A stretch of DNA of 64,000 nucleotides. Origin: Streptomyces kanamyceticus. GTDB taxonomy: Bacteria; Actinomycetota; Actinomycetes; Streptomycetales; Streptomycetaceae. The stretch's first letter is position 1. Each line of letters starts with the position of its first letter. Location: contig NZ_CP023699.1 of NCBI RefSeq assembly GCF_008704495.1, forward strand, positions 7,006,001 to 7,070,000, read 5' to 3'. Made by a program: the position numbers and the translations under genes. This document shows positions 10,656 through 28,660 of the stretch, piece by piece. The notes under the pieces were generated by a model. It made no database searches, was not told the origin of the DNA, and saw nothing but the letters and a program-made list of their open reading frames with translations.

Positions 10656-10870
10656 TCAGCTCTTGGGCGCGGCCTGCTGGACGACCTCGAAGGACCAGAG
10701 GGTGGAACCGGAGGCGGCGGGCTTGGGCCGCTCACCGCCCTCGCCGCCACCGTCACCCGCCGGACGACCCTGCTGGTGCGCGGCCTTCATGGGCCCTTCC
10801 ATCCACGCCTGGAAGGCGGCCTCGTCGCGCCAGCGGGTGTAGACGAGGTACTGGTCCGTGCCTTCGATGG
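10656..10870 (-). pseudogene. 3' part of the host ABM-domain monooxygenase gene, split by the element
   Basis: The frame starting at the left junction encodes IEGTDQYLVYTRWRDEAAF to SFEVVQQAAPKS (70 residues). This is the C-terminal two-thirds of an antibiotic biosynthesis monooxygenase (ABM, dimeric alpha/beta barrel) protein. The missing 5' part lies at 28618-28764, across the integrated element. Joining the halves gives a 114-aa protein closely resembling the complete element-borne copy at 28250-28564. Without its start this fragment is presumably not translated as such. Confidence 0.88.
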
Positions 10871-10893
10871 GGCAGAGGGTGCGCGGATGTACC
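10857..10893. other. attL: left integration junction
   Basis: Host attB half (CCTTCGATGG, to 10870) joins the element's attP half. The attP half carries the arm GGTGCG-CG-GATGTACC (10878-10893). The shared core with attR is GGGC (10870-10873). Combining this half with the attR half gives an attP whose 16-bp arms match in 14 of 16 positions, centred on a GG dinucleotide. Confidence 0.85.
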
Positions 10894-10902
10894 TTTCGCT
10901 GC

Positions 10903-12552
10903 ATGAGCGATGACGACTTAGTCTCTCGCGCACAGTGGGGAGACCTGCAGGGGCAGAACTGGGCGGTGCTTGTGCGCCTGTCCACGGATGAGGCCGAGGA
11001 CGACGAGGAGCCGGTCGCGGAGCCCGGTGAGCCGGGAGAGGGCGCCCGGCGACGAGGCCCGATGACGGGCCGCGACATCAAGAGCACGAGTGAACAAGAG
11101 CGCGACGGCCGGGAGTTCATCGACCGGCACGGCGGCGTGTGCGTGCACGTCTACTACGAGCCGGACACGTCGGCGTGGCGGAAGAAGCGTGTACGTCTGC
11201 CGGACGGCCGGGTGGTCTATCGAGTCGTACGCCCGGTATTCGAGGGCGCGTTGGAGGACCTGAAGGCGGGGCAGGCCCCGAAGGGCGAGCGCCTGGACGG
11301 CCTGATCGTCTACGACATCGACCGCCTGACGCGCGACAACAGGCACCTTGAGGACGCGATCGATGTGGTGGAACGCCACCGGCGACCGATCATCGACATC
11401 AACGGCAGTTTGGACTTGCTCACGGAGAACGGCCGAGCGACGGCGCGAGTGGTCGTGGCGATGAGTAACAAGCAGTCGGCGGATACGGCCCGCCGAGTGC
11501 GCCGGAAGCACCGCGCCCTGGAGCGGGAGGGCATCCCGACCGGGGGAGCGAGGCCGTTCGGCTGGAACGAGGACAAGCGGATGCTGCACGCGTCCGAGGC
11601 GAAGCTGCTGAGGGAGGCCGCGCTAGGGGTTCTCGGCGGCGCCCCCATCCGGGCGTTCACGACCCGCTGGAACGAGCAGGGCGTGATGACGCCGCGGGGA
11701 AGCAGGTGGAGTACCACCAAGCTCAAGACGGTCCTGCGTAACCCGCGTATGTGCGGCATCCGTTCGCGGAAGTCTCGGGAGCTCAACTCGGACACGGGCA
11801 GCGAGACTGAGCGTTGGGAGATCGTCTACGGCGACGAGGGCGAGCCGGTCCGAGGGCAATGGGACCGCGTCATCACCGAAGAGCAGTGGAAGGCACTCCT
11901 GGAAGTGATCGGCGACAACATGTCACCGGGCACAGGCCACAACTCCCGCAAGTACCTCCTGACGGGAACGCTCCGCTGCGACAAGGACGACTGCGGCACA
12001 CCACACCGCGCCATCAAGGCACCGAGGGGCGCCAACAAGCCCGAGGGGTTCTTCTATTACGCCTGTCCGGACAAGGGACAGGGAGGCTGCGGCGGAGGCA
12101 CGAAGATCCCGGGCCCGGACGCCGACAAGGCAGTCACGGAGCTGGTGATAGCCAAGTACGAGGAGGAGGCCGCAGCCAGGGAGGCGCAGGTGGCACCGAA
12201 GGAGTGGGGCCGCGAGGAGGAGTTGGCCCGCGTCCGAGAGGACATCGAGGAGGCGAAGGAGGCCCGCCGGATGCGGATCCTGAGCAAGGAGCGGTACTTC
12301 GCGATGCTTCAGGAACTCACGGTGCAGGAGAGGCAGTTGGTGCGTGATCGCAACCGGTGGGTCAAGCACCAGGTGGCCGCGATGGGCAAGCCCGTCGACC
12401 TGCGGGCGGAGTGGGACGACCTGACGCTGCCGGAGAAGCGGGCCTACATAGAGCAGACGCTGACGGCAGTGCTCGTCGCGCCAGCGGTCGGGCGCCGCAA
12501 GCCCGTCTACACGAGGCTCACGCCGCTGTTTCGTGCGGATGACGAGCAGTAA
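10903..12552 (+). CDS. int: Large serine recombinase (integrase)
   Basis: 549 aa from ATG 10903, only 32 bp inside the element's left end. The N-terminal resolvase domain has the catalytic serine in WAVLVRLSTDE and the conserved arginines in YDIDRLTRDNRHLE. It carries an insertion (EDDEEPVAEPGEPGEG...) soon after the serine. The recombinase domain (HRALEREGIPTGGARPFGW to RNPRMCG), a zinc ribbon (LRCDKDDCGTPH...YACPDKGQGGCGG) and a C-terminal coiled coil (WGREEELARVREDIEEAKEA) follow. It should integrate attP into attB within the ABM gene, and excise only with a directionality factor. No strong ribosome-binding site is visible. Confidence 0.95.
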   Translation: MSDDDLVSRAQWGDLQGQNWAVLVRLSTDEAEDDEEPVAEPGEPGEGARRRGPMTGRDIKSTSEQERDGREFIDRHGGVCVHVYYEPDTSAWRKKRVRLPDGRVVYRVVRPVFEGALEDLKAGQAPKGERLDGLIVYDIDRLTRDNRHLEDAIDVVERHRRPIIDINGSLDLLTENGRATARVVVAMSNKQSADTARRVRRKHRALEREGIPTGGARPFGWNEDKRMLHASEAKLLREAALGVLGGAPIRAFTTRWNEQGVMTPRGSRWSTTKLKTVLRNPRMCGIRSRKSRELNSDTGSETERWEIVYGDEGEPVRGQWDRVITEEQWKALLEVIGDNMSPGTGHNSRKYLLTGTLRCDKDDCGTPHRAIKAPRGANKPEGFFYYACPDKGQGGCGGGTKIPGPDADKAVTELVIAKYEEEAAAREAQVAPKEWGREEELARVREDIEEAKEARRMRILSKERYFAMLQELTVQERQLVRDRNRWVKHQVAAMGKPVDLRAEWDDLTLPEKRAYIEQTLTAVLVAPAVGRRKPVYTRLTPLFRADDEQ

Positions 12553-12629: not shown

Positions 12630-15600
12630 CTAGTTATTGAAGCCGCGTTCGTCCGGAGGCTGCCGAGTTGTGCGAAGGAACTCTTCCGCCATGACGGACA
12701 CCACGCTTGGCTCAAGGCGAGCCAACACCGGTAGGCATATTTGCCAATGCCCAACCGTAAGCGCTTGGGCGAGGATTCGACGAGATTCCGTAGCAGCTAG
12801 CCGAGATGCAAGAGATGCTAGCGCTCGAGCTTGCTCGGGAAGATGATTAATCGAATGCGCAACCTCTTCGGCATGTTCTGGCCTGCCGGAACTGGCGAAG
12901 GCCTCGGTAACCGCGCTTAGAGCCTGTCCTTGCGAAATGGGATTGGTGATCAAGCGGGCGATCATTTCGGCCTTATCTAGCTCGCCCGCACTGATTCCCG
13001 ACCGCACGATTGCCGTAAGCGCTCTCGCCTTTACTCTTGATTCGGGAATTGAAATAGCGATATTTTGAGCCTGATCGATCTCGCCCGACGTAGCTACCGA
13101 AACCGCAATAGATGACAATGCTTTTTGCTGAATGGCGGATCTCTTAATGGACCGTACGATACTTTCAGCCCACTCTGTGTATCCTGCGGAGGCAATTCGC
13201 TGGGATACATCTACCAGCAACTGATCTCTGTAAGCTGTGGTGATCGTATTGGCAACTGTGATGGCTTGGTTGAAGAATTGCTTCGCTGTGCTTGTCTCTC
13301 CTTTCTCGGTCAGAACTTCCCCCACATGCGCAAGTGCTTTAGCTCGTAGTGGCACGTTGCTAATAAACCCGACACAGGTTTTGGCCCGCTCGAAACCCCT
13401 AATCGCTGCTAGTTCGCATGCTATTGCGAGTAATGCATTATATTGATGGTATGGGTGATCGATCGCAACGGCCACTGCCTCCGCAGCTGCAAAATCGCCA
13501 GAATTTAGCTCTAACCGCACTTCCTGAGGAAATCTATGGTGCGCAGACGCGTCGACTCTGACTGTCTGATCGGAGCTCCGCTTATCTGTTCCTGATTCGA
13601 TGCGCAACAGAGTTGCCAGGGTTCTTGCCCTTATCGTTGGATCATTAATCAATTGGGCTATTGTCTTAGCTTGTTCAAATTTTCCAGTGGTAGCTGCTGC
13701 TGCTGCGATGAGTGAAAGCGTTTTGTCCTGCTGAAGCTCATCCGTGAATGAGGCGGCGATGTCTATCGCTCGATTTAGATTACCAGTTCGGGCCATCGCC
13801 TCCGCAACAACTGTGAGTGTTCTTTCCCGTTGGGGTCGGTTAGGAATTTCCTGAGCGATCTGTTCGGCTTGATCGACGTCACCCGCTGCTGCTGTTGCTT
13901 GAGAGAGTTCAGCAAGTCCCTTGATAGCTTGAGACGGACTCGTAATTGATCGACCGGCAATCTCTGCCTCGATCGCTATTTTCTCGGCTTGATTTTCGTA
14001 GCCAGCTGACGCCAGCCCCGATGCGAGAGCGGCCAGAGATTTGACCCGTCGTGCTGGGCTTGCCACTTTCCGGGCGATTCTCGCTGCATGGTCTGGATTT
14101 TTTGCTATGGCTGTCACGCGAGCGATGGAAGTCAGGACATCCTCACGGTCAGAGGACCTACCAATTGTCTCGGCAAGCCTCAAAGCAGATTCTAGTAGGG
14201 CTGCAGCCATCTTGTCCTGTCCGATGTCCATTGCCGCGTGGGCAACCGATACTAGCGTCCAGGACTGTCGGCTCGGATTACGAATTGCGCGAGCTGTCGC
14301 TTCAGCGAGCTCGTTCGTCTTAATGGCGGCGCGCTTATTGCCGCGGGAGCTTTCCGCCCGAGCTACAGCGGACAGGGCTTGGGACCGTTCGGATCGGCTC
14401 CTTATAGAATGGGCAATCCTGCGACTCGATTTCACATCTCCTATATTTGCTAGTTCTGTGGCAACTGCCAGTAGAGCCTGGGCGCGTTCGGACCAGGTAG
14501 GAATTCCCTGAGCCGTTCTATTGGCGCTCTGCACATGTCCCATAGAAGCTGCGGCTCGGGCAATTGCGACGGTCACATGGGCACGGCGATGGGGGTCGGT
14601 TAGTGAACTGGACGCCATCTCGGCACGGCTGATTAGGTCGCCAGCTCTCTGCGGATCCCCAGCTCCTGCAGCGGCACGTGCAACTACTGCGGTGGCATGC
14701 GCGTACTCGTACTCGTCGGTTATCTCCTCCAGGGCCTGTTCGGCCTGGCTGATAACCAGCCTAGCCAGGGAGAGGTCTCCAGCCGCAGCCATATCTCTAG
14801 CCACCGCAGTCAGTGCCTGGACTCTACGAAAGGGCGCGGTAATTGAGCGAGCCAACGCCTCTGCACGGTTGAAGCGTCCAAGTTGGACCCAGACACTCGG
14901 CAGGTTTGCAGGGATGTTGTCGTTCCGTGTCGAAAGTCTTGCTCTATGAATGGCTAGTCTACTTACTGCTGACAGATCGGGGTCAGCTTGATTAGCAATT
15001 ATCTCTTGAGTGGTTACGATCTCGGCGAGGGCACTCGTGTCTCCACCAATAATGTCGAGCATTCGGTCATGACGATCAGGGTCCGTAGCGCAAGTAAGCA
15101 TGCGCACTTGATCGCCAGTAGCCTGCAGCAGCTTGAAGTATCCCCGTAGCAAATACTCTGGTGTGTTCGATGGCCAACGCCTTCTGGAATATTCGTCCGA
15201 CCAGTTATATAGTCTTTGCCGGTAGGAATCTAGGCGGAGTTTTCCGAGGAAATTTGCCGCTTGTTGTTGGAGTTCCTCGTGGCCCAACATGTACACGGTG
15301 TTGCGTTGCAAGCGTCCAGACTGTGATGTGAATGTTCGACCGGAGACAGCGCTGAGGTAGCTATTAATCTCCCAGGGAGATAGCCCGGTCAGCTCAGCCA
15401 GGTCGGCCTCAGATAGCCCGCCTCCCGCAGCGGTCAATAGGCCTAGTAGATCCAACTCCGTGGTGGTCCCGTGAAATAGTCTTTTAAGTTCGCGTTCTGC
15501 GTCCTGGCGTACCACTTCAGCGTGGGGAGAATCACGTAGCGAGCGAACTGTCACTCGCTGACGCAATGGATGATTGCCAGGAACATCTGCCGGGATAGGT

Positions 15601-17042
15601 GGACTCGGCCTGCTGGCTACGATCACGCGCATGTTGGCTGGAGGGTCCGAAGGAAGTGTCGCGGCGATGCTATGGGCGTCAGGACCGGCAGTAACTCCTT
15701 GATCTTCATCAAGCCCATCGACAATCAATACAAGACGCTTGCCCTTCTGCCTACATATTCTGGCTGCGCGATCCAGTGAACCGAGTAGATGTGCATCGCG
15801 GGTAGAGTCGGTTAGCAGGGGAGGCATTGGCTCGCCCAGTATCTCTAGAAGCTGTTCAAGTACGACATCGGAGAACGCTACTCGATCGGCTTGACCTGCC
15901 AGGCGGGCAGTGATGAAGAACGAAACTATGTGAACTCCATCTGGCGGATTCAAGGTAAACCATGACAGCAACGCTGACTTTCCTGCCCACGCCTTTGCTC
16001 GCCACCATAGGTAGTTGTTCAGGTTAGGGGCTTTGCAGAACTCTGATAGAAACTCTAGTTCCTCCTTCCTGCCTAGTAGCCTAACTGGAGCTATTCGTCT
16101 TACCTGCGATAGATAATTGGAACGCACCGGGGGGTCGGAGTGCGCTGCTGCGTGATCGCGTTCCTCGTCTACCTGGCTTTTAGTGTGGCGAGCGGAACTG
16201 CTATTTGATATCGAAAGAGAGAAACCCTTTAGATCGCGAAGGAGTGAGAGCTCATCTTTTGTCGCAGCCGCGGGGGCATAGCGGCCGGCCAGTTCACAAA
16301 GTCGACTGAATAGACGGTCTGCGGTAGCGGGGGTTCCATCTCCGGTTATCTGCCGCAGCCGTCCTACTGCTTGCGTTCGATCGGTTTCATCGGTTCCCTC
16401 TAGGCGAATCTCTCTGAGTCGCAGGGCTCCTAATAGACGCCAAGTGACTTCGCTTACGGGTGTGGCGTCAAAGGTGATATCAATATTATTTGAGGCGATG
16501 GCGACAACCTGATCGAACTGCCTAAGCCTTTCTCGAACGGCCCGGGTGGTGCGACCAGGTCGGTCCACCTCCTTGCGAAATTCCAGATCATCGCCTACGT
16601 CTCGTGCGATTGCAGCCAGTTCTTGCATTTGTCGTATATGGCTATTTGGGCTTGCGACGACCAAGGCGAGTTTCCATGTGCCCGCCGTGATCTCGGTCAA
16701 GTGTTGATGTAGAGTGCGAAGGTATGATCCAATAAGGTCTACTGTTGATTTATTGCTGGCTACGAATGATGGGTCTCTTCGGACGCCAATTGATACTCTG
16801 TGTTCTATTTCATTGGCCGAATTTCCAATAACGACGACATCGTCCACCGGGCTAAATGAACTTGCCTGGAATGTTATCCGGCGTGGGGTGACATCGTCAC
16901 CCAGTTCGGTTAGGGGGTCGCCCGTCAGGAGATGGCCCAGGAGAATCGCTCCATAGCGATGCTCCAGCACAGTTCCGCCACCGCCCGTAGAGTAAGGGCT
17001 GGCCGCTGTTGACGCGCTGCGGGTCTGGGAACCTTTTCGCAC
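12630..17042 (-). CDS. STAND/NACHT-type NTPase with nuclease-like N-terminus and helical-repeat tail (candidate defence protein)
   Basis: 1470 aa. Residues about 20-120 (LEHRYGAILLGHLL, LGDDVTPRRITFQAS, SPVDDVVVIG, SIGVRRDPSF) resemble N-terminal effector domains of the PD-(D/E)XK/Cap4-like group, without certainty. The NTPase has Walker A AKAWAGKSALL (349-359, first Gly replaced by Ala), Walker B LVLIVDGLDED (437-447) and sensor VIVASRPSP, typical of NACHT/STAND proteins. A winged-helix-like segment lies at about 530-570. From about 690 to the end run TPR-like units of roughly 31 residues (A-x-x-I-A-x-x-I-x-x-P-x-x-R-x-x-A-L-x-x-V-A). This is the Avs layout: effector, switch, repeat sensor. 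The gene is markedly A+T-richer than its surroundings and is element cargo. Confidence 0.72.
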   Translation of the reverse strand: MRKGSQTRSASTAASPYSTGGGGTVLEHRYGAILLGHLLTGDPLTELGDDVTPRRITFQASSFSPVDDVVVIGNSANEIEHRVSIGVRRDPSFVASNKSTVDLIGSYLRTLHQHLTEITAGTWKLALVVASPNSHIRQMQELAAIARDVGDDLEFRKEVDRPGRTTRAVRERLRQFDQVVAIASNNIDITFDATPVSEVTWRLLGALRLREIRLEGTDETDRTQAVGRLRQITGDGTPATADRLFSRLCELAGRYAPAAATKDELSLLRDLKGFSLSISNSSSARHTKSQVDEERDHAAAHSDPPVRSNYLSQVRRIAPVRLLGRKEELEFLSEFCKAPNLNNYLWWRAKAWAGKSALLSWFTLNPPDGVHIVSFFITARLAGQADRVAFSDVVLEQLLEILGEPMPPLLTDSTRDAHLLGSLDRAARICRQKGKRLVLIVDGLDEDQGVTAGPDAHSIAATLPSDPPANMRVIVASRPSPPIPADVPGNHPLRQRVTVRSLRDSPHAEVVRQDAERELKRLFHGTTTELDLLGLLTAAGGGLSEADLAELTGLSPWEINSYLSAVSGRTFTSQSGRLQRNTVYMLGHEELQQQAANFLGKLRLDSYRQRLYNWSDEYSRRRWPSNTPEYLLRGYFKLLQATGDQVRMLTCATDPDRHDRMLDIIGGDTSALAEIVTTQEIIANQADPDLSAVSRLAIHRARLSTRNDNIPANLPSVWVQLGRFNRAEALARSITAPFRRVQALTAVARDMAAAGDLSLARLVISQAEQALEEITDEYEYAHATAVVARAAAGAGDPQRAGDLISRAEMASSSLTDPHRRAHVTVAIARAAASMGHVQSANRTAQGIPTWSERAQALLAVATELANIGDVKSSRRIAHSIRSRSERSQALSAVARAESSRGNKRAAIKTNELAEATARAIRNPSRQSWTLVSVAHAAMDIGQDKMAAALLESALRLAETIGRSSDREDVLTSIARVTAIAKNPDHAARIARKVASPARRVKSLAALASGLASAGYENQAEKIAIEAEIAGRSITSPSQAIKGLAELSQATAAAGDVDQAEQIAQEIPNRPQRERTLTVVAEAMARTGNLNRAIDIAASFTDELQQDKTLSLIAAAAATTGKFEQAKTIAQLINDPTIRARTLATLLRIESGTDKRSSDQTVRVDASAHHRFPQEVRLELNSGDFAAAEAVAVAIDHPYHQYNALLAIACELAAIRGFERAKTCVGFISNVPLRAKALAHVGEVLTEKGETSTAKQFFNQAITVANTITTAYRDQLLVDVSQRIASAGYTEWAESIVRSIKRSAIQQKALSSIAVSVATSGEIDQAQNIAISIPESRVKARALTAIVRSGISAGELDKAEMIARLITNPISQGQALSAVTEAFASSGRPEHAEEVAHSINHLPEQARALASLASRLAATESRRILAQALTVGHWQICLPVLARLEPSVVSVMAEEFLRTTRQPPDERGFNN

Positions 17043-17504
17043 AGGCTCATATTACGGCTTGGCGAACGAACGCGTAGGTCTGCTGACAACCTGCGCTTAC
17101 GAGTTGATCTTGATGGGGCGGGTCGACTCGGTTCCCGAGGACGGCTCTGCTGGGCATGGGCAGCCTTGGCCCTCCTTGCTTGACGCGGGACCAGGCCGTG
17201 CCAGGAGGTTGGAGAATCCACGAAGGAGCGGCCTCAGCTACGACGTTCTCGCACCATTGAATGTCGTACGCTGATTGCTGGGGGAGCAGGTGCCATCCCC
17301 GTCTCTGTCGACGGCGTGAGTAGACGACGACACCGCTGAGCAGGGGCTAGTCCGTCGGGTGGGCCGAGGCCTCGGGGGAGCGGCGTGGCACTGTGACATT
17401 CATACGTAACGTTATGTTGATCTGCCGCCATCTCTTTTCCGACCAAGGTGGCGTGCTTCGAGCGTGCGCTCGGGCCCATTCGCGTAGTCCCTGGTCTGAC
17501 TCCA
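17043..17504. other. Non-coding stretch between the NTPase and rep genes
   Basis: 462 bp without a convincing gene. It must hold the promoter of the minus-strand NTPase gene and the 3' region of rep. An A+T-rich near-palindrome CATACGTAACGTTATG lies near 17400-17415 and could be a regulator site or promoter element. No clear origin iterons, tRNA or terminator were seen. Confidence 0.4.
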
Positions 17505-18800
17505 TCAGCGTTCCATGGCTAAGGAAGCAGCAAGCGTCGCTCGGGCGATCTCTTGATTCTGGGCGAGGTCTTCAGCGACGGTGGCGGCTATCAGAGTGGC
17601 GCCTGCTGTATGCCCAGATCCTGCATAGCGCCAGTTGGCCTCGACTTGGGTGGTGGATACGTCGTCGGGACCCTTGTGCGCATGGACTGCGCGTGCGGCG
17701 CGCAGCGCGGCGTAAGTCGTCGAGTAGCTGCGGGACTTGGTGAGGATGTGTCCGCGGTAGCCGAGAGAGTGAGTCCAGGCACGCAGGCGGAGCGGTTCGT
17801 ACTCGGGGAGACCGCCCAGGCGCCAGCAGGTGCGCATGAGAGTGCGCACGTGCGCGGTGACCGGGGCTGCTTCGATGTCGTCGCTGTTGGTGAGCTTGTG
17901 GTCGAGGCCCGCGCCGGTCTCGCTGGCTCCCTTGGTGACGTACTTCGCGACGTACGCGGCTACGGCGTCGTCGTGCAGGGTCTCACCGTCGGCATGCACC
18001 GTCAGGGGACGAGCGTCGAGTTGGACGCCCCAGCGAAGGGCGAGTTCGCCGATGGCGGGGGAGTACGGAACGTGGACCATGGCGCGTTGGGCGGAGGCTC
18101 GAACGGCGTTGATCAGGCTCTCAGCCGTACCCCAGATCGGAGGTTCGTCGTCGGGCCCCGCCGGGCCGTCGAGGCGTACGACGGCGTGGATGTGGACGGC
18201 AGCCCGTTGCTGATACTCGGCGACTCGGGCAAAGGACAGCCGAGCGTGTTCGGGGAAGCGCGACTGTGCGACGCCGACCGATGAGGCGAGGCGGCGACGG
18301 ACACCGATGACGAAGCGGTCCCAGAGCTTTCCCACGTGTGCGTGCCAGAGCACATGAGCCACGTATTCGTAGCAGTCGGGGCAGAGCGGTTGGCCGACTA
18401 GGGGGTCGCCCGTGGAGTGGACGAGGCCGCAGCCATGGGACCGACCGTGTTCGCAGTCACCCGCATTGCGGCGAGGGCGGCATCGCTCGTCGGCCGCGCG
18501 GTGGACCGGGCCGAATGAGGGTGCAGTCAGGGTGATGAAGAGGCGAGGCCGATCGCGGACCGTGGACGGGACGTTCTTGCCACCGAGGAGGCCCGCGCGG
18601 ACGAGGTGGAAGGTGTCTCCGGCGTGGAGGCGGGAGCACGGCGCGCAGACGGTCGCGCGTCTATTGCCGCAGCGGAGCAAGAGGCGTTCGCCGGGTTCAT
18701 TGCGGGTGTCGTAGTGGTGGAGGATCTCGCCGGTTGTCGCGTCCCGCGTCGTCGTCCAACCGGAGAGGTGGATGGGATGTGCGCAGCCACCGGTGGCCAC
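17505..18800 (-). CDS. RepSA-like rolling-circle replication initiator (5' end uncertain, possible frameshift)
   Basis: 431 aa if started at GTG 18800. The HUH motif HIHAVV (203-208) and the tyrosines in AAYVAKYVTK (283, 287) fit a nicking initiator. Paired cysteines (CGNRRATVCAPC, CPDC) fit a zinc-binding region. RepSA proteins nick the double-strand origin for AICE replication. The same frame stays open upstream to about 19046 and reads like family sequence (TPADRRAALDREARL, RLAQHPQYARWFEQI-type) but has no ATG, GTG or TTG start there. The ATG with a good ribosome-binding site (AAGGAGCG) at 19006 is in another frame. The N-terminus is therefore either frameshifted or non-canonical. Confidence 0.8.
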   Translation of the reverse strand: MATGGCAHPIHLSGWTTTRDATTGEILHHYDTRNEPGERLLLRCGNRRATVCAPCSRLHAGDTFHLVRAGLLGGKNVPSTVRDRPRLFITLTAPSFGPVHRAADERCRPRRNAGDCEHGRSHGCGLVHSTGDPLVGQPLCPDCYEYVAHVLWHAHVGKLWDRFVIGVRRRLASSVGVAQSRFPEHARLSFARVAEYQQRAAVHIHAVVRLDGPAGPDDEPPIWGTAESLINAVRASAQRAMVHVPYSPAIGELALRWGVQLDARPLTVHADGETLHDDAVAAYVAKYVTKGASETGAGLDHKLTNSDDIEAAPVTAHVRTLMRTCWRLGGLPEYEPLRLRAWTHSLGYRGHILTKSRSYSTTYAALRAARAVHAHKGPDDVSTTQVEANWRYAGSGHTAGATLIAATVAEDLAQNQEIARATLAASLAMER

Positions 18801-19176: not shown

Positions 19177-19374
19177 TCAGGGGTGGGAGAAGCCGTTGAT
19201 GAGCCAGGTCACGATGCCGTGGACGGTGAAGACCACCGGGGTCTGTCCGAGGTAGACGCCGAAGAGGCCGACGCAGACCGCTTGCCAGGCGCGGACGTCG
19301 CGGGAGCGGACGAGGAGGGCGGTGATGATCCCGAAGATCACCGCGAACGTGAACGCCGTTGTCTCGCTGATCAC
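19177..19374 (-). CDS. Small two-helix membrane protein of the transfer region
   Basis: 65 aa with hydrophobic segments AFTFAVIFGIITALLV and AVCVGLFGVYLGQTPVVF separated by RSRDVRAW, and a C-terminal IVTWLINGFSHP. The start codon overlaps the stop of the TraB-like gene by 4 bp (ATGA), so translation is coupled. Small membrane proteins next to traB in Streptomyces elements are thought to aid intramycelial spread (Spd proteins). That role here is inferred from position only. Confidence 0.6.
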   Translation of the reverse strand: MISETTAFTFAVIFGIITALLVRSRDVRAWQAVCVGLFGVYLGQTPVVFTVHGIVTWLINGFSHP

Positions 19375-20672
19375 TTGGCGTCTCCTCCCGGCGCCGCAAG
19401 GGCACGGTCTATGGCGGGCAGGAGCGGGGTCAGGGCCGCGTGCTTGCGGGCGGTGGCCATGGCCTCTTCGGTTGTCGTCAGGTGCGAGCGGGCACGGCTC
19501 CAGCCGCCGTCCGGGCCGGTGCAGACGGCCACGCCCTGTTCCTCAGCGGTGATCGACTGGGCGACGGCCACGGCGTCCTTGTTGAGGTCTCCGAGGGTCA
19601 TCTCCGCCGTGCCGGGGTCGTTGACCCGATGGCAGATCCGGCCGCCGAGCTGAGCCCGCAGCGCGGTGACGCCGGGCCCGAGGTCCGAGCCGACGCGCTG
19701 CCCGGCGACAACCAGGTGCATGCCCAGGGCGGCACCGAGTTGGGCCAGGCGCAGAAGGAGGGTTGAACACTGATCCGCCTCTGCCTTGCTCTCCCGACTG
19801 CCGTCGGAGAGGTACAGCTCTGCCAGCTCGTCGACGATCACCACGACGGGCACGGGGCGCAGCTTGTCGGGCAGCTCCCAGATCGAGCGGACTCCCGCCG
19901 CCCGGCAATCGCGCATGCGGTCCTGCATGTCGACGACGAGCGCGGCAAGCACAGCGACCGCTTCCCGCCTGCACGTCGTGAGTGCGCTCAACCGCCCGGC
20001 GAACAAGCCCAGCTCCATGCCGCCCTTGCAGTCGATGCCGACCAGAGCGACATCCTGCGGGGCGAGTTGGGTGATCAGCCGGGCCAGCAAGGTCGACTTG
20101 CCCGAGCGGGTGGCCCCGGCGATCAGCCAGTGCGGCACCAACCGGAGGTCCATCACCCAGGCCCCGCCGCTCTCCAGTGCGCCGATGAGCGCGGACAGCA
20201 GCGCGGCCGGGGCCGAGGCTAAGCCGGGCCGGGCCAGCGGATCGCTGGCCGTCGCGGTCAACAGCACGAGGCCGCGTTCCGGCGAGGTGACCCGCACGGC
20301 GTGGACCTTCCACGCATGCACGAGCGCTTCGGCCGCCTTCATGAACGTCGCCGGGGTCTGCCCCGCGTGCAGACGCACGGCCACGCTCAACCCCATGGGG
20401 GTAGCCCGCGGGAACGAGATCCGGGGCGCCACCGGCCGCAGCGGGTCGCCCTTGACGATCAGGTCGCCGACCAGCCCGCGCGGCGGACGCCGGGAGACCG
20501 CAAGGTCGTTGAGCATCGCGACCTTGCGCCAGGTCAGCAGCACCCGCCACGCGGTGAGCGGGTAGCCGGTGACGTACCAGTGCCAGGCCGGACGGTGCCG
20601 CCGCAGCAGATCGGCGACGACGAACACCCAGGCAAGTACGGCGAGCGCGAAGGCGACGAGGATGGCACCCAT
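19371..20672 (-). CDS. FtsK/SpoIIIE-type DNA translocase (TraB/TraSA-like)
   Basis: 433 aa from ATG 20672. An N-terminal membrane segment (ILVAFALAVLAWVFVVADLL) is followed by an FtsK-type ATPase with Walker A GATRSGKST (186-194), GIDCKGGMELG, Walker B PVVVIVDELAEL (275-286) and the C-terminal R-finger region LRAQLGGRICHRVND. Streptomyces TraB-like proteins move double-stranded plasmid or AICE DNA between hyphae as hexameric rings. The start overlaps the stop of the upstream small gene (TGATG), and the stop overlaps the next small membrane gene. The set forms one transfer operon. Confidence 0.92.
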   Translation of the reverse strand: MGAILVAFALAVLAWVFVVADLLRRHRPAWHWYVTGYPLTAWRVLLTWRKVAMLNDLAVSRRPPRGLVGDLIVKGDPLRPVAPRISFPRATPMGLSVAVRLHAGQTPATFMKAAEALVHAWKVHAVRVTSPERGLVLLTATASDPLARPGLASAPAALLSALIGALESGGAWVMDLRLVPHWLIAGATRSGKSTLLARLITQLAPQDVALVGIDCKGGMELGLFAGRLSALTTCRREAVAVLAALVVDMQDRMRDCRAAGVRSIWELPDKLRPVPVVVIVDELAELYLSDGSRESKAEADQCSTLLLRLAQLGAALGMHLVVAGQRVGSDLGPGVTALRAQLGGRICHRVNDPGTAEMTLGDLNKDAVAVAQSITAEEQGVAVCTGPDGGWSRARSHLTTTEEAMATARKHAALTPLLPAIDRALAAPGGDAK

Positions 20673-21028
20673 CAGGCACCGCCCGCAGCCTTGGCCGGGC
20701 CCGCAGCCGGAGCGCCGCTCACCGGGGTGACCGCGTCGGCGCGGAAGCTGACACCGTGTCGGTCGCCCATCGCCCAGGCGAACGCCACCAGGCCGGTGAC
20801 CTTGACGACTTGGCCCTCCTGGATCCCGTTCGGTTCGCCGGAGACGGCGATCTCGATCACGGAGATACGCCGCCGGTCCTGCCGCACGGTGACCGCCACG
20901 GTGTAGACGGTGTTGCCGTCCCGGTCCTTCTTGACCTCCTGTGTCTCGGAGTTGCTGATCTTCGCTTCGGGCGCGATGGCGCACCGCAGTACGCCCAGTC
21001 GTGCCGTGTCCACGGGAATGGACTGCAT
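20672..21028 (-). CDS. Conserved AICE protein upstream of traB
   Basis: 118 aa from ATG 21028 with GGAGG 7 bp upstream. It has a compact beta-rich fold (AKISNSETQEVKKDRDGNTVY, VTVRQDRRRISVIEIAV, EGQVVKVTGLVAFAW) and an Ala/Pro-rich tail. The pattern resembles the OB-fold-like proteins that precede traB in many AICEs. No function is established. It is the first gene of the transfer operon and is directly under the putative GntR operators. Confidence 0.6.
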   Translation of the reverse strand: MQSIPVDTARLGVLRCAIAPEAKISNSETQEVKKDRDGNTVYTVAVTVRQDRRRISVIEIAVSGEPNGIQEGQVVKVTGLVAFAWAMGDRHGVSFRADAVTPVSGAPAAGPAKAAGGA

Positions 21029-21074
21029 TTTTTGGCCTCCTTGGCCGATTAGACGTCGGGCACATGCCGACGTC

Positions 21075-21144
21075 ACTTGTCCTGACGAGTGACGACTATG
21101 GAGTTCTGTACGGCGCGGGGTCAAGTACTTATGCTGACGAGTGA
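21075..21144. promoter_or_regulatory. Two 18-bp direct repeats, probable GntR/KorSA-like operators
   Basis: ACTTGTCCTGACGAGTGA (21075-21092) and ACTTATGCTGACGAGTGA (21127-21144) match in 16 of 18 positions and start 52 bp apart, about five helical turns. They lie in the intergenic region between the divergent transfer operon and the GntR gene. The first copy is also flanked by CGTCACT/AGTGACG symmetry. The layout fits a repressor controlling both transcripts. Confidence 0.6.
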
Positions 21145-21190
21145 TGTCGCGCGTGCGACGTGCCTACGACTTCAACCTGAAGGTGCCGAG

Positions 21191-21973
21191 ATGACGGAGA
21201 TCCAACGCCCCGGAGCCCTCTACCAACAGGTCGCCTCAGCGATCCGGGAAGCGATCCTCTCGGGCGAGTTCGAGCCCGGCGCCCCGCTCCCCTCCGAGGC
21301 CCAGCTCATCGAGCGCTACCAGGTCTCCCGCCCCACCGTCCGCAACGCCGTCGCCGCCCTGCGAGCAGAAGGGTTGGTCAACGTCCGCCACGGCAAGGGC
21401 AGCTTCGTACGCTCCGACGGCCAGCCCACCGTCACCATCGAACGCCGCATCAGCCGTGCGCGCGACGGGAAGTTCGTCATGCCGAGTGGTGCTGTCTGGG
21501 ATGAGGCCGAGGAGCCGACCCCGTACCGCGGCCACTCGACGAAGGGCAGCGGCCAGTTGCTCGGCATCGGTGCAGAGGAAGATCTCTTCGTCTGCGACAG
21601 GCTGCTCATCGACCCCGCGAGCGGCACCCGAGCCATGCACCGCACGATCACCCCGCTCGCCGTCGCGGCGGACATTCCTGCCCTCGGCCAGGAGCCGCCG
21701 GGCCCGCCCCCGATGACCGCGTACGAGTTCATGGCGCAGGCCGGGCACAAGCTGTGGTGGTCCGAGACGGTCCGCGCCCGCATGCCGCTCCCTGACGAGC
21801 GGACCACTCTCCGACTGCCGGACGCGACACCGATCCTGCACGTCGCCCGCGTCACGCACGGCACAGACGACCGCCCGCTGCTCCTCGAAGAACTCCGCAC
21901 CGGTGCGGACCGTGCCGAACTCGCCTACCGGATCACCGCCGACAAGGAGCCCGCGCGGCGCACCCGAGCCTGA
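21191..21973 (+). CDS. GntR family regulator, KorSA-like (HutC/UTRA type)
   Basis: 260 aa from ATG 21191. The N-terminal winged helix (YQQVASAIREAILSGEFEPG, LPSEAQLIERYQVSRPTVRNAVAALRAEGL) is a classic GntR DNA-binding domain. The C-terminal half (VCDRLLIDPASGTRAMHRTI, LPDATPILHVARVTHG) matches the UTRA ligand-binding domain of the HutC subfamily. In pSAM2-type elements KorSA represses replication and transfer genes. The divergent transfer operon and the repeat pair between them support the same role here. Confidence 0.85.
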   Translation: MTEIQRPGALYQQVASAIREAILSGEFEPGAPLPSEAQLIERYQVSRPTVRNAVAALRAEGLVNVRHGKGSFVRSDGQPTVTIERRISRARDGKFVMPSGAVWDEAEEPTPYRGHSTKGSGQLLGIGAEEDLFVCDRLLIDPASGTRAMHRTITPLAVAADIPALGQEPPGPPPMTAYEFMAQAGHKLWWSETVRARMPLPDERTTLRLPDATPILHVARVTHGTDDRPLLLEELRTGADRAELAYRITADKEPARRTRA

Positions 21974-23007: not shown

Positions 23008-23562
23008 CTACGTCACCCCGTCGGCAGAGCCCGGGGCGAGGTCGAACCGGCACCAAACGGTCTTGCCGCCCACCTCACCCGGCTCCCACCACACGGCATC
23101 GACGAGGCGGTGCACGATGAACAGACCGCGCCCTGTGTCCGGCAACACCGCCGCGCACAACTCACCTGCCAGTTCGGGGGAGACGAACTCACCCACCGGC
23201 AGATCAGGCGGCGTCGAGTCCTCATCGGCCACCCCGATGAACAGCCACTTCGGCCACATCTTGAGGACTACGTCGATACGCCGCGCGGCACCGGGCCGCG
23301 ACAAGCAGTCGTCCGGCACGACGTGATGCACGACGTTTCCGACCAACTCTGAGACGACCAGTTGAGCGTCATCGACGAGGCGGGCAAGTCCCCAGTCCCG
23401 GAGACATGCGCTCACCATTTGGCGCGAGCCGCGCACGGAGTCCGGAGACTCGGCGAAGAGCGTCAGCGCACGGAAGCGCCCGCCGACCGGTACCTGCTCC
23501 TGAGCGCGAGCAGCGGGCACCGCTGAAGTGTTCGCTAGGCGTCTGCTGTCCGGCGCGTTCAT
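23008..23562 (-). CDS. HATPase-domain regulatory protein (anti-sigma/serine-kinase-like)
   Basis: 184 aa from ATG 23562 behind GGGAGG. The GHKL ATP-binding motifs are an N-box ELVGNVVHH (72-80), G1 box VADEDSTPP (111-119) and G2 GRGLFIVHRL (144-153). Like many Streptomyces RsbW/BldG-pathway proteins, it lacks a sensor or histidine-phosphotransfer domain. It likely binds or phosphorylates a partner protein. It is divergent from the XRE-TPR gene across a GTTCAC-box region; such pairs are common in Streptomyces and often act as small regulatory modules. Confidence 0.82.
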   Translation of the reverse strand: MNAPDSRRLANTSAVPAARAQEQVPVGGRFRALTLFAESPDSVRGSRQMVSACLRDWGLARLVDDAQLVVSELVGNVVHHVVPDDCLSRPGAARRIDVVLKMWPKWLFIGVADEDSTPPDLPVGEFVSPELAGELCAAVLPDTGRGLFIVHRLVDAVWWEPGEVGGKTVWCRFDLAPGSADGVT

Positions 23563-23619
23563 TGCGCCCCCTCCCGAATGTCGGCCGGTCCTCATGACCG
23601 CCGCTTTCCGTGCAGACCA

Positions 23620-23708
23620 GTGAACGGCGCGGGCCGCGCGATCGGGAGCGTTCACTACGGGGTTCACGTGAACACCGGTGGAGGAGAGGGGGGTTCACCG
23701 ATGAACCC
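23620..23708. promoter_or_regulatory. Array of GTTCAC/GTGAAC boxes between divergent regulators
   Basis: Boxes occur as GTGAAC (23620), GTTCAC (23650), the perfect palindrome GTTCACGTGAAC (23662-23673) and GGGTTCA-CCGA-TGAACCC (23691-23708). All lie between the divergent HATPase and XRE-TPR genes. They look like cooperative operators for the XRE protein or a related regulator. Confidence 0.6.
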
Positions 23709-23771: not shown

Positions 23772-25142
23772 ATGAACCGAGAGCCGAACGCGCAACTGAT
23801 CTCACTCATGGACGAGGCCCAGGTCTCGAACAAGGGCCTGGCCAAGCGCATGCGCGATCTCGGGCGGCAGCGCGGAACCGACCTCGGAACAACACACGTT
23901 GCGGTTCAGCGATGGCGGTCCGGGGCCGGTATCCAACCGCAAACAGCCGCAATCATGGCGGACGCGCTGAGCGTCAAACTCGGTCGCCGAGTCACCCCCG
24001 CCGATCTCGGGTTCTTCGGCCAGACCGAACCACCGACACCGCTGGACGTCAACTACCAGCAGTCCCTACCCGACGTGTTGACCATGCTTGACGGCCTGGC
24101 CCAGGAGCGACCGGAATCCGTGGACGGCACCGGCTTGATCGTGGCCGAGAGCGACCTCAGTGCCGCCGTCCTGTCCTGGATGGTCGCGCGCCCCGATGGC
24201 GTCCAGGCCGACAGGCCCGCGTCCCAGCGCGTCGGCATGCGCGACGTACGAGCCGTCAGAACCGCCGCCGACATGTTCATGCGCCTCGACTTCCTGTACG
24301 GCGGGGGCCACGGCCACAAGGCGCTGCGCCACTACTTCCGCCACGAGGTCCTGCCACTGCTCAGCGCCAGCTACAGCGAGAAGGTCGGCAACTCCCTGTT
24401 CGGCGCCGCGGCCGAGATCTCCCAACTGCTCGCATGGACGGCGTACGACAGCGGAAACCACACGCTCTCGCACCGCTACCTGATCTCGACACTCCGCCTC
24501 ACGAAGGTCATCGACGACCGGATGTTCGGTGCCCGCATCCTGTCCAACCTCAGCCATCAGGCGAACTACCTCGGCAACCACGCCCAGGCCATCCAGCTCG
24601 CCCGCGCAGGCGTCGAGGGCGCGCACGGCAAGGCGACTCCCCGAGCCATGGCGCTGTTCTCCGCGATGGAGGCCCGCGCGTTGTCCAACGCCGGAGATCC
24701 CATCGGTGCGGGCCGAGCCATGAACGAGGCCGAGCGCGCCTTCGAGCGGGCCGACACGGCCGAAGATCCCCAATGGCTCGGCTACTTCGACTCCGCCGAG
24801 CTCATGGGCGAGTTCTGCCACTGCTTCCGCGACCTCAAGCAGCGACGCGAAGCCGTCGCGCACGCTCAGCGAGCGGTGGACAACACCGACCCGCAGTACG
24901 CGCGCACTCTCGGCTTCTGCCGCATGGTGCTAGCCCAAAGCCAGTTGCTGAACGGCGAGTTGGAAGCCGCTGTCACCACCGCCAGCCTGGCCGTCGACGG
25001 CGGCGACACCCTCCAGTCCGCCCGCTTCCAGCGCTACGTGAACGACTTCCAGCACGAGGTCAGCGAGCACTCGGCGAACGCCACGGTGGCAGCTTTCAAC
25101 GAGAAGGTCCGCGAGGCAATCGCCCGCCTGGACGACGAGTAG
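23772..25142 (+). CDS. XRE-type regulator with C-terminal TPR-like sensor
   Basis: 456 aa from ATG 23772 (GGCAGGGGAA upstream). Residues 1-75 form an XRE-like helix-turn-helix (LISLMDEAQVSNKGLAKRM, THVAVQRWRSGAGIQPQTAAIMADALS). The long remainder is helical with TPR-like pairs (ILSNLSHQANYLGNHAQAIQLARAG, ALFSAMEARALSNAGDPIGAGRAM, RRDAVAHAQRAVDNT-type). This matches Streptomyces XRE-TPR regulators that bind signals or partner proteins with their repeats. It ends 3 bp before the convergent kinase gene. It is probably the reader of the GTTCAC array, by position. Confidence 0.82.
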   Translation: MNREPNAQLISLMDEAQVSNKGLAKRMRDLGRQRGTDLGTTHVAVQRWRSGAGIQPQTAAIMADALSVKLGRRVTPADLGFFGQTEPPTPLDVNYQQSLPDVLTMLDGLAQERPESVDGTGLIVAESDLSAAVLSWMVARPDGVQADRPASQRVGMRDVRAVRTAADMFMRLDFLYGGGHGHKALRHYFRHEVLPLLSASYSEKVGNSLFGAAAEISQLLAWTAYDSGNHTLSHRYLISTLRLTKVIDDRMFGARILSNLSHQANYLGNHAQAIQLARAGVEGAHGKATPRAMALFSAMEARALSNAGDPIGAGRAMNEAERAFERADTAEDPQWLGYFDSAELMGEFCHCFRDLKQRREAVAHAQRAVDNTDPQYARTLGFCRMVLAQSQLLNGELEAAVTTASLAVDGGDTLQSARFQRYVNDFQHEVSEHSANATVAAFNEKVREAIARLDDE

Positions 25143-25145
25143 CCG

Positions 25146-26072
25146 CTACCAGGCACCGTCAGGACGCCAGTCCCGGGGCGCGTCGTCGTTGCGCAGCCCT
25201 GCTATACGCCGCCGGTACTCAGCTGCCGTGCGCTCATCCTCCTGCACGTTCTGCATGAGCCAGGTCGTCATGCCGAACTCTTGCAGGCCCCGCAGCGTCT
25301 CGTACCCGTCCCAGTCGTACAGGTCGCGACCGTAGGCGCCCACGAAGTCGGCATACTGCTCATCGGTCTGCCACCCAAGGCTGTGATGCTCCGTGGCCGT
25401 GACCATCAGGTCCCATTCCGGATGATCGAAGCAGAAGGCTTCGAAGTCGATCAGGATCACTTGCCCCTGAGCGTCCACCATGAGGTTCTGCACATGCGCG
25501 TCACCGTGTACGGGCCCCTTCGGTGTCTCGAACCGCAACTCGGCGAACCTGTCCCGCAGTTCCCGCGCACGCTTCCGGAGGAAGACCTTGTCATCCTCCG
25601 GGATCACGGCCCGATCGAGCCGCAGCTCCTGCTTGTCGAAGGGCTCGAACGAAGGCAGTTGAAGGCCATCCGGCACAGTCAGCGAGTGCAGATCCCGCAG
25701 GACACCGCCGAGCTCGCCGTACGTTGCCCTCCGACCTCCTTCGACGATCAGATGCCAGAACGTCACAGGGTGCCCGTCGATCAGGAGGGGCTGTTCCAGG
25801 TCCTCGACGACACGAGCGGCAGGGAACCCTTCAGAGGTCAGCCAGCGCGAGACACCTACTTCGGTACGGGCTTTGGGTAGCCACTGTGTCCCGCGGGCCA
25901 CACGCACGATCACTGGCACAGAGGCCAGCCGAAACAGCGCGTTCTCCCCGAGCCGGATCAACTCCGCGTCTCTGGCGTCGAGTCCCGCGGCTTGGCATGC
26001 GGCAACCATCACCCGCGTCGCCACCGTGGATGTGAACGCCTCTTCCGAACCCTGAGCAGCGTCAGCCGCCAT
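25146..26072 (-). CDS. Aminoglycoside-phosphotransferase-fold kinase
   Basis: 308 aa from ATG 26072. It has the APH fold: nucleotide-loop region ENALFRLASVPVIVRVARG, the catalytic loop GPVHGDAHVQNLMVDAQG with Brenner motif HGDxxxxN, and the metal-binding VILIDFEAFCFDHPEWD (DFE in place of DxD). The C-terminal WLMQNVQEDERTAAEYRRRI is a helical substrate cap. It would phosphorylate a small hydroxylated or amino compound. Antibiotic resistance is only one possibility, since most such Streptomyces proteins are uncharacterised. It is convergent with the XRE-TPR gene. Confidence 0.82.
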   Translation of the reverse strand: MAADAAQGSEEAFTSTVATRVMVAACQAAGLDARDAELIRLGENALFRLASVPVIVRVARGTQWLPKARTEVGVSRWLTSEGFPAARVVEDLEQPLLIDGHPVTFWHLIVEGGRRATYGELGGVLRDLHSLTVPDGLQLPSFEPFDKQELRLDRAVIPEDDKVFLRKRARELRDRFAELRFETPKGPVHGDAHVQNLMVDAQGQVILIDFEAFCFDHPEWDLMVTATEHHSLGWQTDEQYADFVGAYGRDLYDWDGYETLRGLQEFGMTTWLMQNVQEDERTAAEYRRRIAGLRNDDAPRDWRPDGAW

Positions 26073-26257: not shown

Positions 26258-28168
26258 ATGTCTTTGAGGATCATACCGGAATGGCCGACTTGCACAGTGG
26301 AAAGTTGTGAAGGCGCCCAGTCGGGAGGCGGATACGAACGGTGTATCGCTCATCTCTCTGACGGGCAATTTGATGCATGGTTGGCACAACTCGCGCCTGG
26401 ATCTGACGTTCATCTGGAACACACCAGGATCTCGGAGAGTCACTTTGAAAGAATAAAACAAGCTGTCGCCGACGAGGAGGGGAGGCCGCACTTCGGCTAT
26501 CTCTGCCTCAAGAAGGCGGAAGTCGAAGGAAGTGTGGATCTCGCTTATGCGCGATTCGCTGAAGAAGTCGACTGCTGGGGTATGCGGACCTCTTCTTATC
26601 TGGATCTCGAAGGAGCTCGACTTGAAAAGGGGATCAAGGCTAGCTTTATCAAGGCTCCTATGGGTGTTGACTTCTATAGAGCCAAGGTTGGCGGCTCTCT
26701 AAATTTGGAAGGCTCAGAGATTGGCAGCCGTATCAGAGTGGCGCGATGTCAAATAGATGGTTCCTTTCTGTTGAGAGGATGCAGGACTGACGGGGATATC
26801 GAATGCTATGAAGTCAAGGTGTCCGGACATGCTTATTTGTCGAACATGGAAGCGGTCGAGAACGTATCTTTTCGTGATTCAACATTCAGGAGTGGGGTGC
26901 AGTTTATCTATTCGAAAACAACGGGCGGCTACTTCAATGTGTCGGGCTGTGACTTCACTGGACTTGTTGAGTTTGAAGGGCTGTGCGTCGCTGAAGATTT
27001 CATGTGGGAGGGGGCAACGTTTCGGGATGAAGTAATATTCGATAAGGGGGATATTGCGGGCCTGGTGGAGGGGGCGTGTGTATTTCGCTCGAGCGTCAGC
27101 TTTGGGCGTACTATTTTTCGATCCCCCGTCATGATTCGAGCATGCGCAAGCCACGTCGACTTTGGTGGCACAAGGTTTGAGTCAGGGGCAACGCTGTTGC
27201 TGCGTTATGCCACGGTGCGCATGACTGGGGCGACACTCGGCGGTCCGACGAGCGTAATTGCGGCCAGTCGGACGTTTGTAGGAATGTTTGGAGATGTCCT
27301 GGATGAATCTGTGATGTCCGATTCGGGCGAAAGGGTAAAGCTGCTCGACATCGGTAGCGTTGATGCGAGCAATTTAACGCTTGTGGACGTCGATTTAACA
27401 AATTGTCGATTCGCTGGAGCGTTCAACCTTGATCAGCTCAGACTTGAGGGTCGGTGGACGTTTGGTGCGCCCCCGTCGGGACGTATTGGGTTTACGCCAT
27501 TCGGTTGGGCGAAGCGTAAGGTGATTGAAGAAGAGCGGCAATGGCGTGCACTGGAAAGTCATCCTAAATATCTGAGAAATGGCTGGGGTGACCCGCCGGA
27601 AAGTATGCAGCCCGACCCCGGAGTTGCGGCGCTGATGACCATTTATCAGCAGCTTCGGAAGGGGCGTGAAGACGCGAAGGACGAACCAGGAGCAAACGAC
27701 TTCTACTACGGTGAGATGGAGATGCGGCGGCATGGTCAAAATTGGGGGATGGGGGAACGTTGGCTGCGTCAAGCCTATTGGCTGCTATCGGGATATGGAC
27801 TCCGCGCCTCGCGTGCATTCGGCTGGCTTGGCGCGGCCATGATTATCACTATTCTTCTCATGATGGGGATTGGTCTCCCACTTAACTCCCCCAGTCAGAA
27901 GGTGACAGGGGCTATTCCGCGTGGTGGGGGAGAGGTGTCCCTTGAGGTTGATGAGGAGGGCTTGAAGAACCCTTCGGGTGACTGGTTCACTGGCAAAAGA
28001 CTCGAGAAAGCTTTAAACGTCACATTAAACTCTGTGGTATTCCGTTCCAGTGGGCAGGACCTCACCACGTCAGGAACATACGTTGAGATGGTCTCACGGT
28101 TTTCTGAGCCGGTTCTGTTAGGCCTTGGTGTTTTGGCGATTCGTGGTCGACTGAAGCGCGGAAGCTGA
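26258..28168 (+). CDS. Beta-solenoid (pentapeptide-like) membrane protein, element cargo
   Basis: 636 aa from ATG 26258. Residues about 75-400 are regular short repeats (GSVDLAYARFAEEVDCWG, SSYLDLEGARL, GGSLNLEGSEIGS, GSFLLRGCRTDGD). They read as a right-handed beta-helix of the pentapeptide-repeat type. A conserved linker (YQQLRKGREDAKDEPGANDFYYGEMEMRR) leads to one clear membrane helix (LGAAMIITILLMMGIGLPL, about 524-542). After a roughly 70-residue outer loop comes a second hydrophobic stretch (PVLLGLGVLAIRG). The gene is clearly A+T-richer than neighbours. Sensor-plus-membrane-effector layouts of this kind occur in defence loci, but the role here is unknown. Confidence 0.65.
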   Translation: MSLRIIPEWPTCTVESCEGAQSGGGYERCIAHLSDGQFDAWLAQLAPGSDVHLEHTRISESHFERIKQAVADEEGRPHFGYLCLKKAEVEGSVDLAYARFAEEVDCWGMRTSSYLDLEGARLEKGIKASFIKAPMGVDFYRAKVGGSLNLEGSEIGSRIRVARCQIDGSFLLRGCRTDGDIECYEVKVSGHAYLSNMEAVENVSFRDSTFRSGVQFIYSKTTGGYFNVSGCDFTGLVEFEGLCVAEDFMWEGATFRDEVIFDKGDIAGLVEGACVFRSSVSFGRTIFRSPVMIRACASHVDFGGTRFESGATLLLRYATVRMTGATLGGPTSVIAASRTFVGMFGDVLDESVMSDSGERVKLLDIGSVDASNLTLVDVDLTNCRFAGAFNLDQLRLEGRWTFGAPPSGRIGFTPFGWAKRKVIEEERQWRALESHPKYLRNGWGDPPESMQPDPGVAALMTIYQQLRKGREDAKDEPGANDFYYGEMEMRRHGQNWGMGERWLRQAYWLLSGYGLRASRAFGWLGAAMIITILLMMGIGLPLNSPSQKVTGAIPRGGGEVSLEVDEEGLKNPSGDWFTGKRLEKALNVTLNSVVFRSSGQDLTTSGTYVEMVSRFSEPVLLGLGVLAIRGRLKRGS

Positions 28169-28607: not shown

Positions 28608-28660
28608 TAGTGGTACATCAACGCACCTGTTGCGGGCGCAGCAGTTCGAACCATTCGAAG
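28608..28660. other. attR: right integration junction
   Basis: The attP half GGTACATC-AA-CGCACC (28612-28627) followed by TGTTGCG (28628-28634) joins the host attB half GGCGCAGCAGTTCG. The crossover lies at G28634/G28635. The reading frame of the host ABM gene enters the element here and stops after four foreign codons (QQVR). Confidence 0.85.

Follow-up and report, generated by a model that had tools for sequence, protein, structure and literature searches.

What does a large, A+T-rich gene do that joins an effector-like domain, a nucleoside triphosphatase (NTPase) switch and a long repeat array beside an integrase of Streptomyces kanamyceticus? The gene lies on the minus strand at 12630..17042 (stop codon included) of contig NZ_CP023699.1, positions 7,006,001 to 7,070,000; the window is this whole stretch of 64,000 nucleotides, and all coordinates are counted from its first letter unless another locus is named. 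A preliminary description of the DNA had taken the product for an Avs-like anti-phage protein carried by an actinomycete integrative and conjugative element (AICE). The analysis reported here makes it likely that the gene encodes a single-gene Avs-like STAND conflict protein, that it is cargo of a serine-integrase AICE, and that it works by the mechanism proposed below. It would then be a one-gene system, compact and borne on a mobile element whose ends are mapped.

Gene and domain architecture

The minus strand of 12630-17042 is a single intact frame of 1470 codons from a GTG; a reading of the plus strand was ruled out by stop codons all along it. The database copy of the protein (P0002) has a shorter start and 1446 residues. 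The protein probably starts at the upstream GTG, which gives it 1470 residues: most relatives with a listed start share an ASPYSTGGGGT stretch ahead of LEHRYGA that is absent from P0002. The guanine plus cytosine (GC) content is 54.6% in the gene, 65.7% in the remaining element and 72% in the flanks, and the end of the serine integrase gene is 77 bp away, in convergent orientation. Both the A+T-richness of the gene and its place as cargo beside the integrase had been pointed out before and are borne out, the latter now with mapped element ends.

The protein consists of an N-terminal effector module with a predicted Cap4/Avs3-type PD-(D/E)XK fold (residues ~14-275; 16218..17003), a NACHT-like STAND NTPase domain (residues ~311-510; 15513..16112), a winged-helix and helical region (residues ~511-735; 14838..15512; boundaries approximate, from model secondary structure and BLASTP) and a TPR-like helical repeat array, presumably the sensor (residues ~740-1440; 12723..14825), all on the minus strand. 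The effector-switch-sensor architecture read from the sequence in the preliminary description agrees with this domain order and with the predicted folds.

Fold of the N-terminal domain

Residues 25-275 form a confident domain in the AlphaFold2 model. Its best solved structural matches are Avs3, HerA-DUF, Cap4, Hachiman and Lamassu LmuA, all of which belong to anti-phage systems. Avs3 ranks first by Z for this domain and first by Foldseek for the remaining protein. The predicted fold is of Cap4 type rather than one unrelated to nucleases, and the word nuclease is used here as a fold assignment: the nuclease-like domain claimed at the outset stands as to its fold, whereas G-x-R occupies the place of the catalytic Q-x-K. 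In phage records, no match to the domain was found at E 1e-3. The chemistry of the domain is the weakest step of the proposed mechanism, because of this G-x-R site.

An altered active site

In 52 aligned rows, the invariant positions include E27 (codon 16962..16964, in the first effector helix), F58, Q59, D67 and D68 (16839..16844, the acidic site at the start of the second strand), R88, R89 and P91. The codons of G86-V87-R88-R89 (16776..16787; these, like the preceding ones, on the minus strand) stand in place of the Q-x-K of a sister clade. The latter is represented by locus L049 (genome G195; 31.6% identity, E 8.6e-9), which reads Q-V-K-R where the window protein reads G-V-R-R. A search seeded with L049 gave 36 proteins, the Q-x-K sister group, and a Pfam scan of L049 gave two matches (E 0.12 and 0.51), neither above its cut-off.

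In a joint alignment, from which about 6 of the 127 proteins with a BLASTP module match (by subtraction) were left out because they cover the module incompletely, R88 is present in 121 of 121 effector-clade sequences, position 86 being G in 107, A in 13 and S in one. E27, D67 and D68 are likewise invariant in all 121 rows. The sister clade has Q and K in 34 of the 34 rows with letters at these positions, the other two of the 36 being gapped there, and D67 and D68 are also found in 34 of its 34 rows with letters. As compared with the Cap4/DUF4297 PD-(D/E)XK nucleases, the helix E and the second-strand D are present and the third-strand (D/E/Q)-x-K is absent. D67 and D68 alone would therefore not suffice to make the domain an ordinary nuclease, G-x-R having taken the place of Q-x-K in the whole clade.

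A FastTree tree of 160 sequences parts the 34 K rows from 124 R rows by a single edge (two rows are gapped), with local supports of 0.979 and 1.0 on either side of the midpoint root; the R and K sets came from two search seeds, so that intermediate forms were possibly missed, and the root of the tree is not established. Three divergent loci in this tree are all A-x-R. By analogy with Cap4 and its kin, we infer that K would be the older state at the third-strand site. In Enterobacter Cap4, K74 is presumably the catalytic lysine, and a structure of Cap4 K74A exists, judging by its title.

The replacement of Q-x-K by (G/A/S)-x-R in 121 of 121 sequences can also be read as the mark of a dead nuclease fold that is kept for DNA or protein binding while a partner does the killing. 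Partners are possible in the family, considering that 140- and 133-codon genes lie directly upstream of effector-less STAND genes in loci L036 (13693-14115 of that locus, minus strand) and L037 (11980-12381 of that locus, minus strand), where they are possibly a separate effector or adaptor. Decay, however, would not predict E27, D67, D68 and R88 to be invariant in 121 of 121 sequences, and the list of coding-like genes holds no small gene upstream of the STAND gene of the window. We hold this explanation to be rather unlikely. An open reading frame of 81 codons at 17234-17479 (minus strand), also upstream of the STAND gene, is known from its translation alone. The divergent locus L046 has kept R88 but has neither E27 nor R89 any longer; the site is thus not intact in the most remote relatives, and decay does occur at the edge of the family. 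Within the clade, the acidic residues are kept and the arginine never varies, which speaks against simple decay.

An arginine in place of Q-x-K, with E/D/D kept, in a large actinobacterial clade whose module is traded among NTPase switches, could represent a new catalytic class of immune effector, delivered here by an AICE; we advance this tentatively and rate its chances at somewhat less than even. Its members would be phosphodiesterases that work with arginine, or else nuclease folds that have taken up a different reaction or that clamp DNA. The locus thereby poses a sharp question, namely whether a Cap4-fold domain can work with arginine where lysine is expected, and the clean split between Q-x-K and (G/A/S)-x-R makes it directly testable.

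Switch and repeat array

The Walker A motif AKAWAGKS (residues 349-356; 15975..15998, minus strand), from A349 to K355, and the DGLDE-like Walker B motif VLIVDGLDED (residues 438-447; 15702..15731, minus strand), with D442 and D445, are invariant or nearly so in an alignment of 31 rows, in agreement with the NACHT/STAND assignment that had been made. The Gly-to-Ala change at the first position of Walker A, held at first to set the protein apart, loses that meaning: it is a family trait rather than a lesion, because the alanine is conserved in at least 90% of the 31 rows. The Pfam matches of the NTPase fall below their cut-offs (NPHP3_N 24.3 vs 24.8 bits, NACHT 18.2 vs 26.7). The winged-helix region and the C-terminal superstructure-forming repeats that STAND proteins require are present, and the NTPase together with the winged-helix region resembles Avs3, Apaf-1 and STAND-TPR.

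Autocorrelation of the array peaks at lag 33 (z 10.7) and lag 40 (z 6.1), so that the 31-residue repeat proposed initially was rejected in favour of units of 33 and 40 residues. The estimate of more than 20 units was about right, the model containing 43 helices, or some 21 hairpins, from residue 714 on. By sequence, 18 units were counted with a scoring matrix whose null is circular, the matrix having been trained on the units it scored; the autocorrelation is an independent test.

Relatives and module exchange

Of 7985 proteins scored in the search with the whole protein, 835 matched at E up to 1e-3, and the best 120 of these were taken (one being P0002); from the effector-module search, the best 120 of 171 matches were taken. 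Neither list is a random draw. Alignments covering 92-100% of the protein, at 41-61% identity, were obtained for 23 of the 119 listed relatives (P0003-P0121). In the 30 relatives with all four parts, mean BLASTP identity is 62.5% in the effector, 69.5% in the STAND domain, 61.3% in the winged-helix region and 39.7% in the array; a fast array behind a conserved switch would be the pattern of a recognition surface.

Part counts, made by BLASTP at 1e-5, a threshold that remote effectors could escape, show that besides these 30 relatives two have effector, STAND and winged-helix parts, 85 have STAND, winged helix and array, and two only STAND and winged helix. At least seven of the effector-less proteins begin inside the STAND match, and their N-terminus is possibly cut off. 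The 93 proteins found by the effector query alone comprise 91 with the effector by itself, one with effector and STAND, and one with all parts. Effector and switch have been exchanged in both directions among the relatives. For instance, Pfam scans of seven effector-less relatives found, where the effector would be, DUF4062 (P0040, P0055), a trypsin-like peptidase (P0082, P0105) or BTAD (P0052); P0013 had no Pfam model there, and P0067, labelled as caspase family by its source, matched no peptidase model. Conversely, precomputed Pfam matches give some effector-bearing proteins WD40 or TPR models instead, and P0182 joins the effector module to a WD40 array and a STAND_TPR-type switch.

The spread of the family is patchy. 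Of 61 genomes near and far, the own one among them, 17 have any match, and a full-length one occurs only in the own genome (G000) and in G030. Among 293 genomes of the order, again counting the own one, 11 have the effector module; some of these matches are broken, such as that of L042 with an internal stop and those of G100 and G194, which are split over two frames or pieces. A whole-protein scan of the genome contigs yielded 20 pattern matches and no confirmed relative.

The carrier element

According to PMC3218068, AICEs of the pSAM2 type are defined by integrase, replication and transfer functions together, and insertion into a protein gene is reported for some serine-integrase AICEs. The window element has all three: a large serine integrase (10858..12552, plus strand; Resolvase and Recombinase, PF07508 4.9e-13 and PF00239 4.3e-10), a RepSA replication initiator (17505..18800, minus strand; PF20199 2.5e-146) and an FtsK/SpoIIIE-type transfer protein (19371..21065, minus strand; PF01580 1.2e-26), accompanied by a GntR-family regulator (21089..21973, plus strand; PF00392 7.4e-22).

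Its ends were fixed by empty sites. In four of six loci (L031-L034), the target gene is intact, and within it the left flank, up to 10871-10873, and the right flank, from 28634, adjoin with an overlap of 2-4 bp. The other two (L003, L005) lack the target gene and hold parts of the left flank, to 10534, and of the right one, from 29260. The GGGC crossover regions lie at 10870..10873 and 28634..28637, and the element measures 17,764 bp between the GGGC copies. The target is a 104-codon gene that we take, from its sequence, to be of the ABM-like family. Its 3' part (10656-10871) contains the left end, and its chromosomal 5' part resumes at the right end, from 28634. The carrier is a pSAM2-type AICE. 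Insertion into a tRNA gene was rejected, the sole tRNA found in the window (45825-45904) lying outside the element.

PMC9513070 reports, for one Streptomyces population, AICE cargo with phage resistance genes and many broken genes; unlike the latter, the STAND gene of the window is intact.

Proposed function and alternatives

We infer a defence role, and a working like that of Avs proteins, from what was computed: the order of the domains, their predicted folds, the exchange of effector and switch in both directions, the fast array and the mobile carrier. At rest, the nucleotide-bound NTPase and the winged helix would keep the protein inactive. The C-terminal repeat superhelix would bind an invader protein directly, and binding would lead to nucleotide exchange and to oligomerisation through the STAND domain. 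The N-terminal Cap4-fold modules, thus brought together, would act on DNA, and the infected cell would be killed or arrested. Where E/D...Q-x-K is usual, the effector would use a variant site (E27, D67/D68, R88); it would more likely be an atypical nuclease than a non-cutting module that acts on DNA.

Several results weigh against this proposal, beginning with the clade-wide replacement of Q-x-K. For the N-terminal domain, there is no Pfam family at E up to 1, none of the 34 matches listed in a sequence-profile search against the PDB covers it, and its Foldseek E-values are modest, two being at or below 1e-3. The full-length structural match to Avs3 has a root-mean-square deviation of 22.9, and no PADLOC Avs profile matches the protein at E up to 1, in a library that includes an Avs4 model. 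Fixed chromosomal synteny outside mobile elements, which the preliminary description had named as an argument against a defence cargo, does not hold for the window gene, but a remoter relative (G004) adjoins genes that we take to be chaperonin-like. Finally, some relatives fuse STAND-TPR to BTAD, and RepSA genes are rarely found near homologues, as detailed below.

The BTAD fusions make regulation a live alternative, in which the protein would regulate development or metabolism in the manner of AfsR/NsdA, its STAND and TPR parts serving to integrate a cellular signal. P0052, which was scanned, has the BTAD N-terminus, the Pfam model of which is also listed for P0045 and P0054, and the repeats show a weak NsdA-family match (E 0.003; 17.1 bits vs a cut-off of 75). 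The Cap4-fold N-terminus with its invariant acidic residues speaks against such a role, as do the patchy spread, the location on a mobile element and the fast-evolving array, and we consider it very improbable.

A RepSA gene lies within 10 kb of a homologue in one of 15 other genomes, many of them in short draft contigs, and AICE carriage is not the rule for homologues. The positive case is G032, whose effector-less switch-sensor is 60% identical and has RepSA at a distance of 4.5 kb and a tyrosine integrase at 6.7 kb; FtsK- and GntR-like genes lie in between, and the opposite side holds relatives of two further cargo genes of the window element. Besides G032, the matches listed include an integrase match about 6 kb from an effector-module gene in G013. 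These figures also bear on the idea that the protein guards the AICE rather than the cell, by sensing plasmids that enter, further AICEs or another copy of the element and blocking them. This would suit a gene that is cargo of a conjugative element, the AICE-like G032 locus, and a chromosome whose six RepSA genes, together pointing to several AICEs or remnants, suggest heavy AICE traffic. The 14 genomes with no RepSA gene within 10 kb of a homologue do not fit it, however, and no result points to a conjugation protein as ligand; we judge it improbable. The Avs-like conflict protein remains the reading that we prefer.

Comparison with known systems

Avs3 (8dgc) and Avs1-4 in general share with the window protein the Cap4-type N-terminal effector fold, the central STAND NTPase and the long C-terminal TPR-like array, but the window protein has no Avs profile match and an altered Q-x-K site. 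The name Avs-like is kept for architecture and fold; by profile, the protein is not a member of Avs1-5, and it lacks one defining motif of Cap4-type nucleases. By shape, order and evolution, it most likely works like an Avs protein. According to PMC12931631, Avs1-4 cut phage and host DNA upon recognising terminase, portal or another phage protein.

In PADLOC, only STAND_TPR (PDLC01173) matches at E up to 1 (E 6.8e-129; best stretch, residues 287-791). The likeness covers the switch and part of the repeat region, whereas the model describes an Xre helix-turn-helix fusion tied to a cas1-less I-E CRISPR system in Streptomyces, and here a Cap4-fold effector is found on an AICE. The effectors of Cap4, HerA-DUF4297, Hachiman HamA and Lamassu LmuA share with the window effector the fold and, as far as the Q-x-K sister clade shows, the acidic E and D and the position of the third-strand motif; they differ from its (G/A/S)-x-R and its fusion to a STAND switch, and they carry sensor parts of their own.

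Of seven proteins scanned, two that carry the same effector module, P0174 (3.8e-12) and P0123 (2.6e-5), match the PADLOC candidate phage defence protein PDC-M54A in their N-terminal part, and both show a weak Avs4 match further on. Their switch and C-terminal parts differ, and the window protein itself has no PDC-M54A match at E up to 1.

Actinobacteria have many STAND proteins, of which the triggers and effectors are, to our knowledge, for the most part untested. A search of titles and abstracts, a coverage that leaves out most subscription papers, found no description of a family with this effector. In a survey of the defence systems of Actinobacteria, the terms Avs, STAND and NACHT are absent from the main text (PMC10482375), and PMC7159879 describes conflict systems that depend on NTP and in which trypsin-like, caspase-like and restriction endonuclease domains are exchangeable.

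Other genes of the element

With its serine integrase, RepSA, FtsK-type transfer protein, GntR regulator and insertion into a protein gene, the element is like other pSAM2-type AICEs; in addition, its right end bears the target gene once more, as a full copy. This full ABM-like gene (28250-28564, minus strand) is 69% identical in DNA to the displaced part over about 200 bp, which suggests a way of keeping the host gene working.

The gene at 26258-28168 (plus strand) encodes a pentapeptide-repeat protein with hydrophobic C-terminal segments by eye. Its GC content of 53% is low like that of the STAND gene, making it a second A+T-rich cargo gene. The gene at 23008-23667 (minus strand) encodes a small histidine-kinase-like ATPase (HATPase_c_2), perhaps of the anti-sigma-factor type. 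The product of 23772-25142 (plus strand) has no Pfam match and looks XRE-like and TPR-like by eye, and 25146-26072 (minus strand) is a phosphotransferase (APH) gene; the G032 locus holds relatives of both, at 38.5% and 43%, respectively.

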